Part shown: in pieces, positions 38,974 to 46,891 of the stretch | Position numbering within the stretch: position 1 is the first letter of the stretch | Layout: every line of letters begins with the position of its first letter | Assembly (NCBI GenBank): GCA_039196715.1 | Contig: JBCCUP010000032.1 | Coordinates: forward strand, 1 to 46,891 | Direction: 5' to 3' | Source: Pseudomonadota bacterium | GTDB lineage: Bacteria > Pseudomonadota > Gammaproteobacteria > CALCKW01 | DNA length: 46,891 nucleotides | Notes under the pieces: model-generated | Seen by the model: the letters and a program-made list of their open reading frames with translations, nothing else | Databases searched by the model: none | What the model was told of the DNA's origin: nothing | Position numbers and translations under genes: made by a program

Positions 38974-40086
38974 CTAGCCGAGGTGTGGCAGGCCGAGGTA
39001 GTCACGCGTCCCCATTTCACGCAGCCGACTCGCCGCCCTGACGAACTCGAAGGCCATCCGTTTGCCGACGTAGAGCTGTTCGGGCTCGGCATCGGCGCTG
39101 ACTATCACCACGACATTGCGGTCGTAGAGCTCGTCGATGAGGTTCACGAAACGGCGGGCAGCATCGCTCGCCGCCTGGTCCATGACCGGCACGTTGCTGA
39201 TCAGAACGCTGTGGAACTCCCGCGCGATTTCGATGTAGTCAACGCTGGCACGTGCACTCTCACACAACGCGGCGAATTCGCACCACAACACTCCGCCTGC
39301 CCGCGCCCGAACGGGGATGTCGCGGCCGTTGACCGTCAGTGCACCGGGCACACAGGCGGCGCCGTCCGGGGCCAGCTCGGCAAACCGCTGCGCCATGGCC
39401 GTGTCTGCCGCCGCCCCGGTCGGCACGTAGTAGACCGGCACTCGCTCAAGTGTGCGCAGGCGGTAGTCGGTGTCGCTGTCGAGGTGCACGACGCTGCAGT
39501 GTGACTCCAACAGCGCGATCGCCGGCAGGAAACGCGCGCGCTGCAGGCCGTCGCGATACAGCCCGCTTGGGGGCACATTCGAGGTTGTGACCAGCGTGAC
39601 GCCAAGCGCGAACAGGGCGTCGAGCAAGCCGTGCATCAGCATGGCATCGGTGATGTCGTTGATGTGCATCTCGTCCAGCACCAGCACGCGCGCCTCGCGG
39701 CTGATCTCGGCCGCAATGTCGGGCAAGGGGTCCTGACGGTCGGCGCGCGCGCGCAACCCGGCGTGCACCCGCTGCATGAAGCGGTGGTAGTGCAAGCGCA
39801 ACTTTGCGTCGAAGGGCAAGGTGTCGAAGAACAGGTCGCAGAAATGCGTCTTGCCGCGACCAACCCCACCCCAGAGGTAGATGCCAGTGACGGCCGTGAC
39901 CGCCGGCGCGCTGCGAAACCGGGCGAACCAGCCGGACGGCGCGCGTTGCGGCGGCTCGATCAGCCGGGACCACAACGCGTCGAGCGCGACCACCGCCTCG
40001 CGTTGCGCCGCGTCGGGCGTGAAGCTGCCGTCCGCCAGTGACCCCTCGTAGACCGAGAGTGGCGACCCGGTGCGAACCTCAGTCAT
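38974..40086 (-). CDS. zapE: Cell division ATPase ZapE (AFG1-like)
   Basis: 370-residue AFG1-type P-loop ATPase. Walker A GGVGRGKTH (73-81), Walker B VLVLDEMHI (134-142), sensor TTSNVPPSGLY, and the C-terminal FVNLIDELYDRNVVVIVSADAEPEQLY are characteristic. ZapE acts at the FtsZ ring in late division under low-oxygen or heat conditions. The ATG at 40086 fits family length; upstream in-frame sequence is not conserved. It lies 32 bp downstream of the PilZ gene on the same strand and may share its transcript. Confidence 0.93.
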   Translation of the reverse strand: MTEVRTGSPLSVYEGSLADGSFTPDAAQREAVVALDALWSRLIEPPQRAPSGWFARFRSAPAVTAVTGIYLWGGVGRGKTHFCDLFFDTLPFDAKLRLHYHRFMQRVHAGLRARADRQDPLPDIAAEISREARVLVLDEMHINDITDAMLMHGLLDALFALGVTLVTTSNVPPSGLYRDGLQRARFLPAIALLESHCSVVHLDSDTDYRLRTLERVPVYYVPTGAAADTAMAQRFAELAPDGAACVPGALTVNGRDIPVRARAGGVLWCEFAALCESARASVDYIEIAREFHSVLISNVPVMDQAASDAARRFVNLIDELYDRNVVVIVSADAEPEQLYVGKRMAFEFVRAASRLREMGTRDYLGLPHLG

Positions 40087-40118: not shown

Positions 40119-40517
40119 TCAGTCGGGTTCGTTGGCTCGAATCGCCTTGATCGCGACTTTCTGACGTCGCAACACATAGCGGTGCAAGCGATCGGCGACA
40201 TCCGGCTGCAGGTCGATCAACCGGCAACGGCAGATTGTGTCTTCGTCGATCTTGATCACGTCGGCGAAGGCCTCGATCGGCTCGGACTCATCAGGCAGAT
40301 CCAGCACCACGCGGTAGCGCATGTTCAATTGCAAGCCCGCACACAGGCACGAGAAGCCACCGGCGCTGATGTCCAGCACACGCGCCAGCTCGCCTTCCAC
40401 TTGCAGAATGACCGGCTCATCCCGGTCCGGCACCACGCGGTAGGCGGCGCGCGTCGACTGGTCATCGATCTTGAGCTCGATGTGCCCGGCCTTCTCGCGT
40501 TTGAAAATCACAGCCAC
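40119..40517 (-). CDS. PilZ-domain protein
   Basis: 132 residues. A single PilZ domain with both c-di-GMP motifs intact: R23-AAY-R27 (RxxxR) and D49-I-S51-AG-G54 (DxSxxG). Short basic N- and C-termini. Probably a cytoplasmic c-di-GMP-binding protein. Its ATG lies inside the end of the MotA-like gene, overlapping by 10 bases, so the two are co-translated. PilZ proteins such as YcgR act on the flagellar stator/rotor, which makes the MotA-like neighbour a likely partner. Divergent from pelDEFG, another c-di-GMP-controlled system. Confidence 0.88.
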   Translation of the reverse strand: MAVIFKREKAGHIELKIDDQSTRAAYRVVPDRDEPVILQVEGELARVLDISAGGFSCLCAGLQLNMRYRVVLDLPDESEPIEAFADVIKIDEDTICRCRLIDLQPDVADRLHRYVLRRQKVAIKAIRANEPD

Positions 40518-41281
40518 GGTCCACGCCCCGTTTCAAGCTCGCCGATGGTGTCCACCTCGACCGCAACCGGTGCGCCGGGCACCAGGTCCACAAGGCGGTG
40601 AAAAACGGCGTCAACGTTGTTGTTCTGCAGGATCTGTATACCGCCCTCGTAGGCCAGTTGTATGCAATTGGCCTCGCGCTCGCGGGCAATCACCAGGCGC
40701 ATGCACACCGGCAGCACCACCAGCACCAGGCTCAACAACGCCACCAGCAACGGCGCCACGCTGTGGCTCTGCACCAGCGTGGCCCCGCTCAGCGCAGCAT
40801 CCACGACGCTCAGGACAAAGGCAAGCGCGCCGGTGCCCGCCAGTGCGGCGGCGAGGAAGAACCACGGCAACACGGTGTGGTTGGCGCGTTGACGTGCCAG
40901 CTCGATACCGGAGGCCGCTTCGAGTCGCATCCGATGTTCCTCGGCCGCGCACGCGACGAGCTTGCACACGCGTTGCAGCGGCATCCAATTGGCCTCCACG
41001 TCCGCGAGGCCGACCAGGCCGTTGCGGCGCGAATGCTCCGTGAGCATGAGAATGTGCGTCAGGGTATCGCGCGGGTCCCGAATGCCCTCGCGCACGCGCG
41101 CGACGGTGCACTGCAGCGCTCGCACGAGCGCGTCGCCGCCGATGCCAGCGGCGACCAGACAGCCGCTGCCGAACAGCACGAAGACCGCGGCCAGGCCCAC
41201 GCCGAAGAGGTGTCCAGCCTGCAACCAAAGCACCGCGAGCAACAGGTAGAGGGCCGCGAACCCCGTCGTCCTCAGCACCAT
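40508..41281 (-). CDS. MotA-like membrane protein
   Basis: 257 residues with the MotA layout: two N-terminal membrane helices (about 4-22 and 26-48), a cytoplasmic loop of about 90 residues with LTEHSRRNGLVGLADVE (the MotA 'ARrxGllaLE' segment), then helices at about 138-158 (starting LPWFFLAAALAG, with the MotA-like proline) and 175-197, and a cytoplasmic tail LAYEGGIQILQNNNVDAVFHRL matching MotA's EGllaIqxGxnP. Divergence is high and no MotB gene is adjacent. Could be a stator-like or ExbB/TolQ-like proton channel. Start at 41281 chosen as the first ATG before helix 1. Confidence 0.75.
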   Translation of the reverse strand: MVLRTTGFAALYLLLAVLWLQAGHLFGVGLAAVFVLFGSGCLVAAGIGGDALVRALQCTVARVREGIRDPRDTLTHILMLTEHSRRNGLVGLADVEANWMPLQRVCKLVACAAEEHRMRLEAASGIELARQRANHTVLPWFFLAAALAGTGALAFVLSVVDAALSGATLVQSHSVAPLLVALLSLVLVVLPVCMRLVIAREREANCIQLAYEGGIQILQNNNVDAVFHRLVDLVPGAPVAVEVDTIGELETGRGPWL

Positions 41282-41530
41282 GACCAAGCCGCTAAAAGAT
41301 TGATTTTCTTGATATACACAGGCGTCCAAGCGTGGTTTTTCAGGCCGCGCCGGCACCGAAGTGCGCCAGTGAGCGATGCGTTTTCCACCCCCAAAAAGTA
41401 GCTCATCGCCGATCAGCCCGCCACCCGCACATCGGGCCCGTCTGCACCGCATCAGCCTGCGGCGTTCTTGCCGATACACCCAGAGAGATGCCGTCACCGC
41501 GCGCGCCGAGCGTGCCCATGTACCACCGCC
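41282..41530. promoter_or_regulatory. Divergent promoter region between MotA-like/PilZ and pelDEFG
   Basis: 249 bp between two divergently transcribed units. An AT-rich island with TTGAT-TTTC-TTGAT and TATAC (41301-41317) contrasts with the GC-rich surroundings and lies close to the MotA-like start; it could be the promoter or an operator. No clean -35/-10 pair could be assigned for either direction. Confidence 0.4.
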
Positions 41531-42856
41531 ATGTCCCAGCTGAGCTCACGCCTAGAACTGACACGCCCACACCGCGGCGGCCACCACTTCGAGTGGCTCG
41601 AGATCATCCTCGCCGTGCTCGCGGTGCCGATGGTGGGCGCCCTGCTGACCCCGCACGACCCCTTCTTCAACGAGGCAAGTTTCCCCTGGGGGGCGCTCGC
41701 CCCGCTCGTGATCTCGCTGCGCCACGGCAGCGCCAAGGGCCTGATCACAGCGGCTGCGTTGACCGGTTTGAACGCCTTGACCGTGGACAGCATCTGGATG
41801 CAGGACAGCACGTTCAGCCGCGAGATCGCCCTGGGCTACTTTCTGATCGCCTTGATCGGCGGCGTGTGGTCGGATTCCTACCGCCACCGCCTCGACGCCG
41901 AACTGGTACGCGCAGACTACCAATCGCAACGGCTCGACGATTTCGCCCAGAATTACCACGCGCTGCGCATCTCGCACGATCGCCTTGAATACCGCCTGGC
42001 CGGGTCGGTCGTGAGCTTGCGCGAAACGCTGCAGGATGTGCGGCGGGCGTTCCGGCAATCGGTGGAGGGCGGCAGCCACCTCGAGGACTACGCTGACGAC
42101 ATCCTCGCGCTGTTCGACTCCTTTTCCTGGGTGCAGGCCGCCGACCTCTACCTCGTAGACGACGCCGGTCGCGTGCTGGCCACGCCCGCAGCCGAAGTCG
42201 GCGACCCGAAACCCCTCGACGGCACCAACCCGCTGGTCGAGGCCGCGTTGCACACGCGCAAGCTGGTCAACCTCTCCGAACTCGATCCCGCACACCAGAT
42301 CGGCACCGTGCTGGTGGCAGCACCCCTGGTCGACGGCACCAACCGCGTGCGCGCACTGGTGACCGTGCGACGCATTCCGTTTCTGTCCTTCACGCCGGAC
42401 AACATCCAACTGCTGGCGGTGCTGAGCGCCCACGTGGGTCACCTGATTTCCGAGGCCGAACTGGCCGGCAAGGGCGACAGCGAGCAGCGGTTCCGTCGCG
42501 AACTGCACCGGGTCTGCCGGGATGCCGAGACCTTCCACTTGCCCGCCATGCTGGTGCGCGTGTTGTTGACCAGCCCGGACCACCAGCACGCGCTGGCCAA
42601 CTACATCATGAGCCTGCTGCGCGGCCTGGACGTCGCGACCAAGAAACAGGTCGGCCCGCAGACCGAGCTGATGCTTTTGATGCCCCTGACCGAAGCGCGC
42701 GAGTATGAGACGTTTCAAAACCGGATAGAGGAATCGGTCGAACAGCGCTTCGGACGCAGCCTGACCGCCCTCGGTTGCAGTATCAGCAAGCGCCCGATCG
42801 GGCCGGACAGCAACGCCGACGCGATCTGGACCAGCTGGCGGGGCCCACATGGGTAG
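41531..42856 (+). CDS. pelD: Pel polysaccharide c-di-GMP receptor PelD
   Basis: 441 residues: four N-terminal membrane helices (about 22-115), a GAF-like domain (about 155-310) and a degenerate GGDEF domain (about 318-435). The inhibitory-type c-di-GMP site RxxD is intact as R364-G-L-D367, corresponding to R367/D370 in Pseudomonas aeruginosa PelD, so allosteric activation of Pel synthesis by c-di-GMP is expected. First gene of a plus-strand pelDEFG set; overlaps pelE by 8 bases. Inner membrane. Confidence 0.93.
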   Translation: MSQLSSRLELTRPHRGGHHFEWLEIILAVLAVPMVGALLTPHDPFFNEASFPWGALAPLVISLRHGSAKGLITAAALTGLNALTVDSIWMQDSTFSREIALGYFLIALIGGVWSDSYRHRLDAELVRADYQSQRLDDFAQNYHALRISHDRLEYRLAGSVVSLRETLQDVRRAFRQSVEGGSHLEDYADDILALFDSFSWVQAADLYLVDDAGRVLATPAAEVGDPKPLDGTNPLVEAALHTRKLVNLSELDPAHQIGTVLVAAPLVDGTNRVRALVTVRRIPFLSFTPDNIQLLAVLSAHVGHLISEAELAGKGDSEQRFRRELHRVCRDAETFHLPAMLVRVLLTSPDHQHALANYIMSLLRGLDVATKKQVGPQTELMLLMPLTEAREYETFQNRIEESVEQRFGRSLTALGCSISKRPIGPDSNADAIWTSWRGPHG

Positions 42857-43841
42857 TGCGCTGGCACTGCTGCTGGGCAGCGCCCTCGAATTTGCGAGCG
42901 TGCGGCAACTGCTGGGCGGGATCGCGAGCGGGCACGACTTCGCCCTGTTCGCCTGCACCCACTTGACCGCAACCGGCCTGATCACCGTTGGCTGCCACCA
43001 CTTCCTGCCGGCTGCGCCGCGCCAGAATGAACGCGAGATCGTGCTGGCCTACTGCGGCGTGCTGGCGCTGTGCCTGCCGATGCTCGGCGCACTCACCGTC
43101 ATCGCCTTGCTGGTTACGCTGTGGCAGCGCCGGAGCACGAGCGCCACCGCCTGGCACATCACCGACGTGCCGGAACTCCCGGCCCGCGCCAACAACGGCC
43201 GTGGCGAGCGCTATGGCGAAGCGGCGCTAATGGGCATCCTCTGCCATTCGCGCAACGCGGAGAAGCGGTTGCGCGCGGTGCTCGCCACGCGCCAACTTGA
43301 GCCCCGCGCCGCCCTGCCGCTGCTGCGACGCGCGCTGAGTGACGCGAGTGAAGACGTGCGCCTGCTCGCGTTCTCCCAGCTCGACAGCAAACAGGAATCG
43401 CTCAACCAGCAGATCAAGGACCTGCTCGGCGAGATGGACGAGAGCCCTGACATCATCCACGACCCCAACATGCTCGCAACCATGGCATCGCGGTTCTGGG
43501 AGCTGGTCTACCTCGGATACAACAATACCCAGGGAGACCTCTCGCTGCTCGACCGAGCGCGCGAACACCTGTTGCGCGCGATCGACCACAACCCGAGCGA
43601 CGCGGAGTTGCATTTCCAGATTGGTCGCATCGAACTGAAACTCGGCAACCTCGACAGTGCACGCGACGCCTTCGAAGTTGCCCAAAAGGGCGGCTTCTGC
43701 ACCGACGAGCTCATGCCCTACCTGGCCGAATGCGCGTTTCTGTCCGGCAACTACGGCGATATTCGTCCGTTGCTCGATCAGATCGATGTGCGACGCCGCA
43801 GCCGGGAGCCCTTCAACGCCTTGGTGGCGCTGTGGGCATAA
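42849..43841 (+). CDS. pelE: Pel biosynthesis protein PelE
   Basis: 330 residues, matching PelE of P. aeruginosa in length. Two N-terminal membrane segments (about 3-20 and 60-90), a linker, then helical TPR-like repeats (about 225-320, e.g. SDAELHFQIGRIELKLGNLDSARDAFEVAQKGG in pattern). PelE binds PelF and helps hold the synthase complex with PelD and PelG at the inner membrane. Overlaps pelD by 8 and pelF by 10 bases. Confidence 0.9.
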   Translation: MGSALALLLGSALEFASVRQLLGGIASGHDFALFACTHLTATGLITVGCHHFLPAAPRQNEREIVLAYCGVLALCLPMLGALTVIALLVTLWQRRSTSATAWHITDVPELPARANNGRGERYGEAALMGILCHSRNAEKRLRAVLATRQLEPRAALPLLRRALSDASEDVRLLAFSQLDSKQESLNQQIKDLLGEMDESPDIIHDPNMLATMASRFWELVYLGYNNTQGDLSLLDRAREHLLRAIDHNPSDAELHFQIGRIELKLGNLDSARDAFEVAQKGGFCTDELMPYLAECAFLSGNYGDIRPLLDQIDVRRRSREPFNALVALWA

Positions 43842-45373
43842 TCCGTCGCTGGCCAACCGCATCCTCGGTCGACGTGCTGCTGCTCGTCGAGGGCACCTAT
43901 CCGGTGCTGCCGGGGGGGGTGTCGGAGTGGGTGCACGCCACGGTCTCGGCGCTGGAGGGACGCCGCTTCGGCATTGTCTTCATCGGCGGTGACCGGGCTG
44001 AAGCCAATCAGCTCCACTACAGCCTGCCGCAGAATGTCGTGCACTTCGAGCACCACTTCATCGCCGACTCGTGGAAGGCACGACGCCACTGGCGAGGACG
44101 GCCGCAGGCCCGGAACCCCGGCGCCCTCTCGCAACTTGCGAGCTTCTACCACGCGCTGGTTGACGCCGCGACCAACGACCTCGAGCCGCCGCCGGCCGAC
44201 GAATTGTTCGAACTCATCGCGGCCGGATCGATCACCCGCGAGGACTTCCTCCACAGCCGGGAAGCCTGGGACGTATTGCGCGTCTGCTACCAGGGCGACG
44301 GCGCCACGGGCGCCCGCTCGTTCATCGACATCTTCTGGCAGATCCGCGCCATGTACGCCCCGCTGCTCACGCTGAACGCGATCATCGAGCGCCTGCCGGA
44401 CTCCCAGGTCGTGCACGCGCTGTCGACCGGGTTCGCCGGCGCCCTGGCCACGCTGCTCAAGCAACGCCGCGGCGATGCCATCCTGCTCAGCGAGCACGGC
44501 GTATACACGCGCGAACGCACCATCGACCTGGCCCGGACAACCGGCGGTCAGAAAGGGCCCGGACGCCACTCCGCGAGCCTGGACGACAGCGATGGCAGGC
44601 GGGTGTGGATCAAATACTTCGAGTCGCTCGGTCGGATCAGCTACCGACACGCCGACCGCATCACCGCGCTGCACAAGAGTAACCAGGAGTGGCAACTCGC
44701 CGCCGGCGCCCCACCGGCGCGCAGTCGCATCGTGGCCAACGGCATCGACGTCAGCCGCTTTGCCTGCCTGCGTGACGACCGCACCGAGGAAATCCCGCGT
44801 GTCGTCGCGTTCATCGGGCGCGTGGTGGCCATCAAGGACGTCAAGACCTTCATTCGCTCTATCGCCCTGATGCGACAGAGTGACCCCGACATCGTGGGCT
44901 GGATCGTTGGCCCGGTGGACCAGGACCCACGCTACGCCGACGAGTGCCTGGCGTTGATACGCAGCCTCGGCCAACTCAACCACGTGCGTTTTCTCGGCTA
45001 CCAGGACGTCGAGGGCATCTACCCGCGGGCCGGGCTGGTCATGCTGACATCGCTGTCGGAGTCGTTGCCTCTGGTGGTGCTCGAGGCCTTTGCCGCCGGT
45101 GTCCCGGTGGTCGCGACCGACGTCGGCGCGTGCGCCGAACTGATCCGTGGTCGCGATGAAAAGGACCGACGCCACGGCAGCGCAGGTGCGATCGTATCGA
45201 TTGCCAATCCACAGCAGACCTGCGACGCCGCACTGGCACTGTTGAACGACCACACCGCGTGGCGGGCCGCTCGGGACGCAGGTAGCGCCCGTGTCAAAGC
45301 GCTCTACGACGAGAACTCGATGCTGGCTGAATACGAGGCCTTGTACGCACACATTTCCAGCAGGGCCGCCTGA
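43832..45373 (+). CDS. pelF: Pel glycosyltransferase PelF
   Basis: 513-residue GT4-family cytoplasmic glycosyltransferase that polymerises the GalN/GalNAc-rich Pel chain from UDP-sugars. N-terminal EGTYPVLPGGVSEWVH (20-35) is the PelF hallmark; HALSTGFAGALATLL, SLGRISYRHADRIT and the EX7E motif in SESLPLVVLEAF follow. The GTG at 43832 gives a protein of family length and overlaps the pelE stop by 10 bases. Its stop shares one base with the pelG start (TGATG). Confidence 0.95.
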   Translation: MGIIRRWPTASSVDVLLLVEGTYPVLPGGVSEWVHATVSALEGRRFGIVFIGGDRAEANQLHYSLPQNVVHFEHHFIADSWKARRHWRGRPQARNPGALSQLASFYHALVDAATNDLEPPPADELFELIAAGSITREDFLHSREAWDVLRVCYQGDGATGARSFIDIFWQIRAMYAPLLTLNAIIERLPDSQVVHALSTGFAGALATLLKQRRGDAILLSEHGVYTRERTIDLARTTGGQKGPGRHSASLDDSDGRRVWIKYFESLGRISYRHADRITALHKSNQEWQLAAGAPPARSRIVANGIDVSRFACLRDDRTEEIPRVVAFIGRVVAIKDVKTFIRSIALMRQSDPDIVGWIVGPVDQDPRYADECLALIRSLGQLNHVRFLGYQDVEGIYPRAGLVMLTSLSESLPLVVLEAFAAGVPVVATDVGACAELIRGRDEKDRRHGSAGAIVSIANPQQTCDAALALLNDHTAWRAARDAGSARVKALYDENSMLAEYEALYAHISSRAA

Positions 45374-46710
45374 TGTCCGGTATCGGTTTCGAGCTGCACC
45401 GACTGCTCAAGGACGAACGCCGCCAGAACCGTGCGAGCCTCGCGCGCTCGATGGACTCGCGCGCGAGCACACCGTGGCTGCCGCCTTTCGTGATGATTGC
45501 AGCAGCCGGGGTGATCACCGGGGCCGCGCTGGGTCAGGGTGAAACGCTCGAAAAAACCGCTGGCCTGTTTGTCTGCCTGGTTGCGGTGTCGCTGTTCGCC
45601 TGTGCCGCCCCGACAGCGGCGATTGCGCGGATAGCCAGCGACCCGAACGCGGCCGTGGTGCGCCCGCTGATCCTCGCCAACCTCAGCACCACGGCGCTGT
45701 CCCTGGTGTGCGTGATGTTGCTGTGGCATCCACTGGCCGGCTTGTTCAACCTGTCACCCACGCAGCCGGTGGTGCTCAGCGCCGTGTTGTTGGCCAACCT
45801 GTGGCCACCAACCGTCGCCCTGCTGATACGGCGACAGGCCAACGGTGTGGCGGTGCCGATCCTGATCGGACTGGTCGCCCTGACGAGTGTGTGGTTCGCC
45901 TTGCGCCTGGTGCACGGCACCGACCTGACCGTCCAAACGCCGTTGATACTCGTGCTCTCCCTGCTCGCCCTGCTGCTCGGCATCGTCGTGGCCCTCGGCA
46001 TTTCGCTGGATCGGGATCGCAAGGCGGCAGAGAACAGCCTGATCAGCTCACTCGACCTCACCACCTGGGCGCCCGCGGTGTTCACGGTCATCATGCTGAC
46101 TGACCGCTTCCTGCTCAGCAACGCCGGCGAAGCCGCGGGATCGCCGCTTCGCAGCATTACGCCGGCCCTGGTAACACTGCTGTGTACGGTGCCAGCCCTG
46201 TGGTTCTTCGTACGGCATCTCGAACCCCAACTCGGCCAACAGCGACGCGAGTTGTTGAACGCCGTCTACGAGGGCGAATCCCTGATCCACATCGAGCAAC
46301 TGCTGACCTCTTTCGTGAGCTCGACACAGGTCGGGCTGATGACCTTCGCCAAGCTGCTCGGGGTCGCGGCAGTCGGCAGCGTGCTGATCGGACCCGAGCT
46401 GTTGTCCAGCCTCGGCCTCGACACCACCGAGATCGGCCGCCTGCAACTCGCGGTCATCAGCAGCGCCATGCTGGCGCAGTTCCTGGCGTGCGTTTCGCTG
46501 TTCTGGTTGTTGCAGTTGCGCACACACGCCCTGCTGGTCACGGTGATGGGACTGGGCATCTACCTCGTGCTGACCATCGCCGCGATGCAATCCCACTTCT
46601 TCCACACCCCGGTGGCCGCGGCACTGGCCGCCAGCATGACCAGCGTGTTGTCACTGAGCGTGTTGCGCCACGCCATCGATTCGCTGTCGGTCGATTTGCT
46701 GCTCAATTGA
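45373..46710 (+). CDS. pelG: Pel inner-membrane transporter PelG
   Basis: 445-residue, about twelve-helix membrane protein of the polysaccharide transporter family. The N-terminal MSGIGFELHRLLK and LPPFVMIAAAGVI segments are typical of PelG, which forms the synthase complex with PelD, PelE and PelF and moves the polymer across the inner membrane. Last gene of the set. The exporter and modification genes pelA, pelB and pelC are not found on either side within the window. Confidence 0.94.
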   Translation: MSGIGFELHRLLKDERRQNRASLARSMDSRASTPWLPPFVMIAAAGVITGAALGQGETLEKTAGLFVCLVAVSLFACAAPTAAIARIASDPNAAVVRPLILANLSTTALSLVCVMLLWHPLAGLFNLSPTQPVVLSAVLLANLWPPTVALLIRRQANGVAVPILIGLVALTSVWFALRLVHGTDLTVQTPLILVLSLLALLLGIVVALGISLDRDRKAAENSLISSLDLTTWAPAVFTVIMLTDRFLLSNAGEAAGSPLRSITPALVTLLCTVPALWFFVRHLEPQLGQQRRELLNAVYEGESLIHIEQLLTSFVSSTQVGLMTFAKLLGVAAVGSVLIGPELLSSLGLDTTEIGRLQLAVISSAMLAQFLACVSLFWLLQLRTHALLVTVMGLGIYLVLTIAAMQSHFFHTPVAAALAASMTSVLSLSVLRHAIDSLSVDLLLN

Positions 46711-46720
46711 GCAACCCATC

Positions 46721-46891
46721 TCAACCGCCGCGGTAGCGTGCCCAGGCGGGCACCAACCGCGCGGCGTCACGGTCGAAGACGCGGTCTCGCTCGCGTGCGT
46801 CAGGACACACCGACTCCAACACCCGCCAGAACGCAGCCGAGTGGTTCATGTGCCGGCTGTGCGCCAGTTCGTGCAGGACCACGTAGTCGAC
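46721..46891 (-). CDS. M48/DUF45 (YgjP-type) metallopeptidase, partial
   Basis: Only the last 56 residues are in the window; the 5' end is cut by the window edge. The fragment contains the zinc protease motif HELAH followed by SRHMNHSAAFWRVLE, the exact pattern of the YgjP-like (PF01863) family, in which the two His and a downstream Glu bind zinc. Cytoplasmic protein of uncertain role. Convergent with pelG, 10 bp between stops. Confidence 0.9.
   Translation of the reverse strand, partial: VDYVVLHELAHSRHMNHSAAFWRVLESVCPDARERDRVFDRDAARLVPAWARYRGG

Follow-up and report, generated by a model that had tools for sequence, protein, structure and literature searches.

To our knowledge, no stator A subunit has been studied that does without either a B subunit or an ion path. 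In Shewanella putrefaciens, motA and motB are followed directly by the gene for a stand-alone PilZ protein, MotL, which at high c-di-GMP slows the lateral flagella; for the PilZ proteins YcgR, MotI, and FlgZ, the reported targets are MotA/MotC or the rotor (PMC8203827). Our literature search found no paper describing PilZ together with a MotA that is orphaned or lacks MotB, and none linking PilZ with ZapE.

The window analyzed here is the whole of contig C32 (46,891 bp) of a 4.95-Mb draft gammaproteobacterial genome. It contains a MotA-like gene with an ATG start (257 aa; 40508–41281, minus strand), assigned by a PDB profile match, an AlphaFold model, and a tree. This gene overlaps by 10 bp (40508–40517) with a single-domain PilZ gene (40119–40517, minus strand; Pfam PilZ, 32 bits with a cut-off of 22.5), and zapE, encoding an AFG1-like ATPase (38974–40086, minus strand; NCBIfam ZapE, 413 bits, 8e-124), lies 32 bp downstream of pilZ in the same direction. 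No motB was found beside the MotA-like gene in the window. On its other side, a divergent intergenic region of 249 bp (41282–41530), in which a scan for sigma-70 promoters gave no match, separates it from the ATG of pelD at 41531. The pel genes are all on the plus strand: pelD (41531–42856; PelD_GGDEF, 1.4e-16), pelE (42849–43841; assigned by position, TPR/HEAT repeats, and the PelE tree), pelF (43832–45373; NCBIfam PelF, 543 bits, 8e-163), and pelG (45373–46710; Pfam PelG, 5e-22). Just past pelG, the contig breaks off within a ygjP-like metallopeptidase gene, of which only the part encoding the C terminus is present (46724–46891, minus strand; HELAH motif, 69% identity over 52 aa to a homologue at L024, homologues in PF01863). 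An earlier note on this DNA had described a diverged MotA-type gene without a motB neighbor, overlapping by 10 bp with a PilZ gene and divergent from pelD across 249 bp, and these coordinates were confirmed; zapE and the ygjP-like gene end were absent from it.

The MotA-like protein alone reached no Pfam family. A profile of five MotA-like sequences nevertheless matched PomA in the PDB (4e-8) as well as other MotAs, and did not match ExbB/TolQ, so the label “diverged MotA” is correct. The best structural match of the AlphaFold model (pLDDT 83) was PomA (8brd) with a Z score of 19.6, compared with 9.1 for ExbB; PomA and MotA chains in general gave Z scores of 15–20 over ~200–220 residues, and ExbB/TolQ gave ~8–9. 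The sequence and fold are thus those of a MotA/PomA-type stator A subunit, including the cytoplasmic torque-interface domain. Hereafter, MotB-less MotA-like proteins are designated B-type and the MotAs of MotA-MotB-PilZ operons A-type; the A-type operons encode a MotB with plug and OmpA regions and also contain PilZ genes. In a tree of 37 proteins, one clade (100/99) united all 19 B-type proteins and was nested in a 100/99 clade with the MotAs of the MotA-MotB-PilZ operons and two more MotAs, while the flagellar MotA of the same genome was placed apart from this group. ExbB/TolQ formed a separate 100/100 branch. The relatedness to MotA/TolQ, which the earlier note had left to a clustering test, is therefore that of an own clade inside the flagellar MotAs, and descent from a flagellar-stator-type MotA is well supported. 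Searches of plasmid and phage collections found no relative. MotA-MotB-PilZ operons with an intact pore and a single-domain PilZ carrying both motifs were observed in several gammaproteobacterial families (L065, L066, L068, L069, L071, L072, L073, and L163), and this MotL-like arrangement is possibly widespread.

The pore positions were compared in an alignment of 24 B-type proteins and 14 MotB-partnered MotAs; the roles assigned to the positions (P173, T186, P222, R90, and G93) are taken to be those usual for MotA and PomA. The TM3 proline (equivalent to Escherichia coli P173) and the TM4 threonine (equivalent to PomA T186) were present in none of the 24 B-type proteins and in all 14 MotB-partnered MotAs. 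The proline at the end of TM4 (P222 equivalent) was found in 4/24 and 14/14, respectively. The cytoplasmic R90 and G93 equivalents, on the other hand, were present in all 24 B-type proteins. The FliG contact equivalent to E98 was missing in the B-type proteins and in the A-type stators as well. With these losses, no ion flow is expected through the MotA-like protein, and the operon contains no motB that could encode a dedicated MotB/PomB partner; both observations speak against the stator-like channel proposed in the earlier note. The dN/dS values of 0.04–0.08 among close relatives indicate strong purifying selection, so that the MotA-like gene is not decaying. Judging from these residues and rates, it is probably a working but non-conducting paralog. 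Exactly one MotB_plug protein was found in eight of the nine carrier genomes, the ninth being a 79%-complete MAG with none, and FliG was found in seven of the nine carriers tested, the two without it being the least complete genomes. The single MotB of the window's genome is encoded in a regular motA-motB operon (L028:6592-9086), followed there by a PilZ gene of a longer form (203 aa). Another degenerate MotA_ExbB-like protein of this genome, just below the Pfam cut-off, is likewise encoded with no MotB beside it (L030:7340-8089, minus strand); genes for a membrane protein with a coiled coil and for a GGDEF protein lie downstream of it.

Among 369 genomes of the class, B-type scores were confined to three GTDB families (at least 240 bits, followed by a drop to at most 176). 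In a sample of 398 genomes of the phylum, no B-type protein was found besides that of the window's genome; the next match, in G698, belonged to a MotA-MotB-PilZ operon. Many other genomes gave weak A1/A4 matches; these were considered as further carriers and rejected, those that were read being ordinary MotAs with intact pore motifs. The order of motA-like, pilZ, and zapE was found in every readable carrier locus of the three families. In the order to which G147 belongs, 30 of 48 genomes, all of one family, carry the MotA-like gene. This group, probably Granulosicoccus and its kin, is referred to here as Granulosicoccus-type. The triplet is complete in 28 of these 30 loci; one of the remaining two is cut by a contig end, and the other (G413) has a gap, with a ZapE-like frame starting ~550 bp beyond pilZ. 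It also occurs in G062 and G196 of the third family and in the four members of the genus of the window's genome, being split over two contig ends in one of the latter (G001). The genes beyond the triplet differ among the carriers. A ygjP-like gene (PF01863) lies directly upstream of the MotA-like gene on the same strand in 27/30 Granulosicoccus-type loci. Most of the genomes are draft MAGs, in which a gene that is found counts for more than one that is not. The constant partners of the MotA-like protein are PilZ and ZapE, and the conserved partner of the pair is ZapE, not Pel.

The PilZ protein of the window retains both c-di-GMP motifs, RAAYR (RxxxR) and DISAGG (DxSxxG), in agreement with the earlier note, and its model matches c-di-GMP-bound PilZ structures (Alg44 and YcgR) and MotI. 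The PilZ fold is accompanied by RxxxR and D/NxSxxG, and none of the four genus members has either motif damaged. The protein is a probable c-di-GMP sensor. Both motifs were intact in 13 of the 25 PilZ proteins associated with B-type MotAs. In most of the others, nearly all of them Granulosicoccus-type, RxxxR was changed to RxxxQ/P/W/A, or the aspartate of the second motif was replaced by glutamate. With about half of the proteins damaged, sensing of c-di-GMP is not a general property of the family. A tree of these short proteins showed long branches, and no conclusion here draws on it. In Granulosicoccus-type genomes with eroded motifs (L141, L074, L145, L136, L139, L147, and L158), pilZ is nevertheless under purifying selection. 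Unlike YcgR-type brakes, the PilZ-only protein of the window (about 130 aa) has no N-terminal PilZN/YcgR domain. Seven PilZ matches were found in its genome, at least two of them YcgR-type, and the idea that the pair substitutes for a missing YcgR was rejected because YcgR-type genes are present. Two such genes (PilZN + PilZ; L005 and L007) lie close together on contig C63 of this genome.

The earlier note had tied the pair to Pel synthesis through PelD, whose c-di-GMP site (R364-GLD367) is indeed intact in the window; the RxxD site is intact in all four genus members. The adjacency is also more than a peculiarity of one genome, as pel lies beside the pair in all four species of the genus and remains there while PelD identity falls to about 34%. 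It does not extend further: no carrier outside the genus was found to have pel next to the pair, and in one of them (G354) pel is on another contig. PelF was above the cut-off in 24 of the 369 class genomes, and at the 20 pelF loci outside the genus, several of them on short contigs, neither a B-type MotA-like gene nor its PilZ gene was found nearby. In G001, G002, G003, and the window (at the contig edge), the ygjP-like gene lies beyond pelG, so that pelDEFG, on the opposite strand, separates ygjP-like from motA-like. In G062, motA-like is directly adjoined by an HNH gene, and no pel genes intervene; in the genus, HNH lies beyond ygjP-like. The simplest history is that the ygjP-motA-like-pilZ-zapE array is the older one and received pelDEFG before the divergence of the four species, the direction of insertion resting on one outgroup family in which ygjP-like and motA-like occur together. 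The PelD and PelE trees, in which G002 is sister to the other three species (99/96 and 99/99), indicate a single acquisition. An independent second acquisition in G002, whose PelF is only 33% identical, was rejected by these trees. The G002 PelF (L025:5728-7239) has an extremely long branch of 5–6 changes per column, which makes the PelF tree unusable for this species, and a changed or lost function is possible.

The Pel system itself appears incomplete in the genus. pelA was not detected in the four genomes, whereas the same query found it in three controls (1e-169 to 1e-180), which makes the usual modification and export of a Pel polymer doubtful. pelABC are not adjacent to pelDEFG, pelB and pelC having been looked for by adjacency only. 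The pelDEFG genes without a detectable pelA (window 41531–46710; L022, L024, and L025) form a Gram-negative set of the Pel-type inner-membrane components without the usual modification enzyme. With no pel beside the pair outside the genus, an insertion into an older array on the other strand, and no detectable pelA, the proposed Pel tie was not borne out, and a joint control of the pair and PelD by c-di-GMP would be incidental or secondary.

The explanation judged most likely, which we hold tentatively and at somewhat less than even chances, is that a stator relative with neither MotB nor a working pore holds a PilZ receptor at the membrane and damps the flagellar motor, or else acts with ZapE, pelDEFG being a later insertion. 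The tree, the residues, and the synteny support an origin of the MotA-like protein from a stator operon of the MotA-MotB-PilZ kind, in which MotB and the ion-path residues were lost while the MotA fold, the rotor-facing cytoplasmic domain, and the PilZ neighbor were kept, and zapE became the third gene. The MotA-like protein would then most likely serve, without conducting ions, as the membrane-bound partner on which the single-domain PilZ docks. When c-di-GMP rises, PilZ would bind it, and the complex could damp rotation by competing with or poisoning the true stators at the rotor. Synteny places the putative insertion of pelDEFG beside motA-like in the ancestor of the genus. It is this combination of descent, a kept fold, rotor-side face, and PilZ, and a lost MotB and ion path that favors a motor-damping role, for which MotL is the closest studied precedent. 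Against it, the c-di-GMP motifs are damaged in about half of the PilZ proteins, the E98-equivalent contact with FliG is missing, the two YcgR-type proteins of the genome could already do the job of a brake, and the constant link to ZapE is left unexplained. Because of that permanent link, a role in division is a serious rival, though on balance an unlikely one: in response to c-di-GMP, the MotA-like/PilZ pair would position ZapE at the membrane or regulate it there, so that the sessile switch is coupled to the Z-ring or to envelope quality control, with flagella not the target. zapE remains the third gene in all three families while the outer genes change, and biofilm phenotypes of ZapE have been reported in Pseudomonas aeruginosa (PMC10989928) and E. 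coli (PMC8743551). However, co-transcription alone can keep genes together, bacteria that lack the pair also have zapE as an ordinary conserved gene, and no motif in PilZ or the MotA-like protein points to ZapE.

The conserved fold and rotor-facing R90/G93, together with the one MotB per well-covered carrier genome, would also suit a stator in which the MotA-like protein joins the resident MotB, either as an alternative subunit or in a mixed complex. We consider this improbable, as the TM3 proline, the TM4 threonine, and mostly the TM4-end proline are lost, so that neither proton nor sodium conduction is predicted, and the gene is never encoded with motB. The least likely of the four models, with very little probability in our estimation, is that of the earlier note, in which a c-di-GMP-gated, stator-like channel acts together with Pel synthesis. 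The adjacency in all four genus species, which persisted as PelD diverged, and the intact PilZ and PelD motifs are what such joint action would predict; they are outweighed by the ion-path residues absent from all members, the missing MotB, the pair without adjacent pel in all other carriers, the 0/20 other pelF loci with this MotA-like or PilZ gene, the interruption of an older array by pel on the opposite strand, and the pelA undetected in the genus.

A conserved MotA clade without MotB and an ion path, held with PilZ under strong selection, would mean that the MotA scaffold is reusable as a signaling platform. The pair would offer a natural experiment on where MotA is bound by PilZ proteins, and through the ZapE link a possible coupling of motility and division to c-di-GMP becomes testable. 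The trio of motA-like, pilZ, and zapE looks new. A broader possibility, which we regard as rather doubtful, is an undescribed class of non-conducting “pseudo-stators”, PilZ platforms operon-wired to ZapE, through which one second-messenger module would control motility and division. Some caution is due, as adjacency to pel is not function and the pel operon here lies inside an older gene array.

Compared with the pelABCDEFG operon, the locus has the same pelDEFG order and the PelD c-di-GMP site, but pelABC are not adjacent and pelA was not found in the four genomes. The motor brakes YcgR, FlgZ, and MotI are likewise PilZ proteins, whereas the window PilZ lacks the PilZN domain and the true YcgR-type genes are elsewhere in the genome. 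The PomA-type stator A subunits (TGI4 group; PMC12505986) share with the MotA-like protein the fold, the length, the four TM helices with a cytoplasmic domain, R90/G93, and the tree position, but the MotA-like protein has no B subunit and has lost the ion-path residues. As for MotL, compared by these features, the likeness consists of a single PilZ domain of about 130–145 aa with RxxxR and DxSxxG, encoded after a stator-type MotA gene. Here, in contrast, there is no motB, the MotA has a degenerate pore, and the next gene is zapE; the MotL arrangement with PilZ directly after motA and motB is instead found in the related A-type operons (motA-motB-pilZ).
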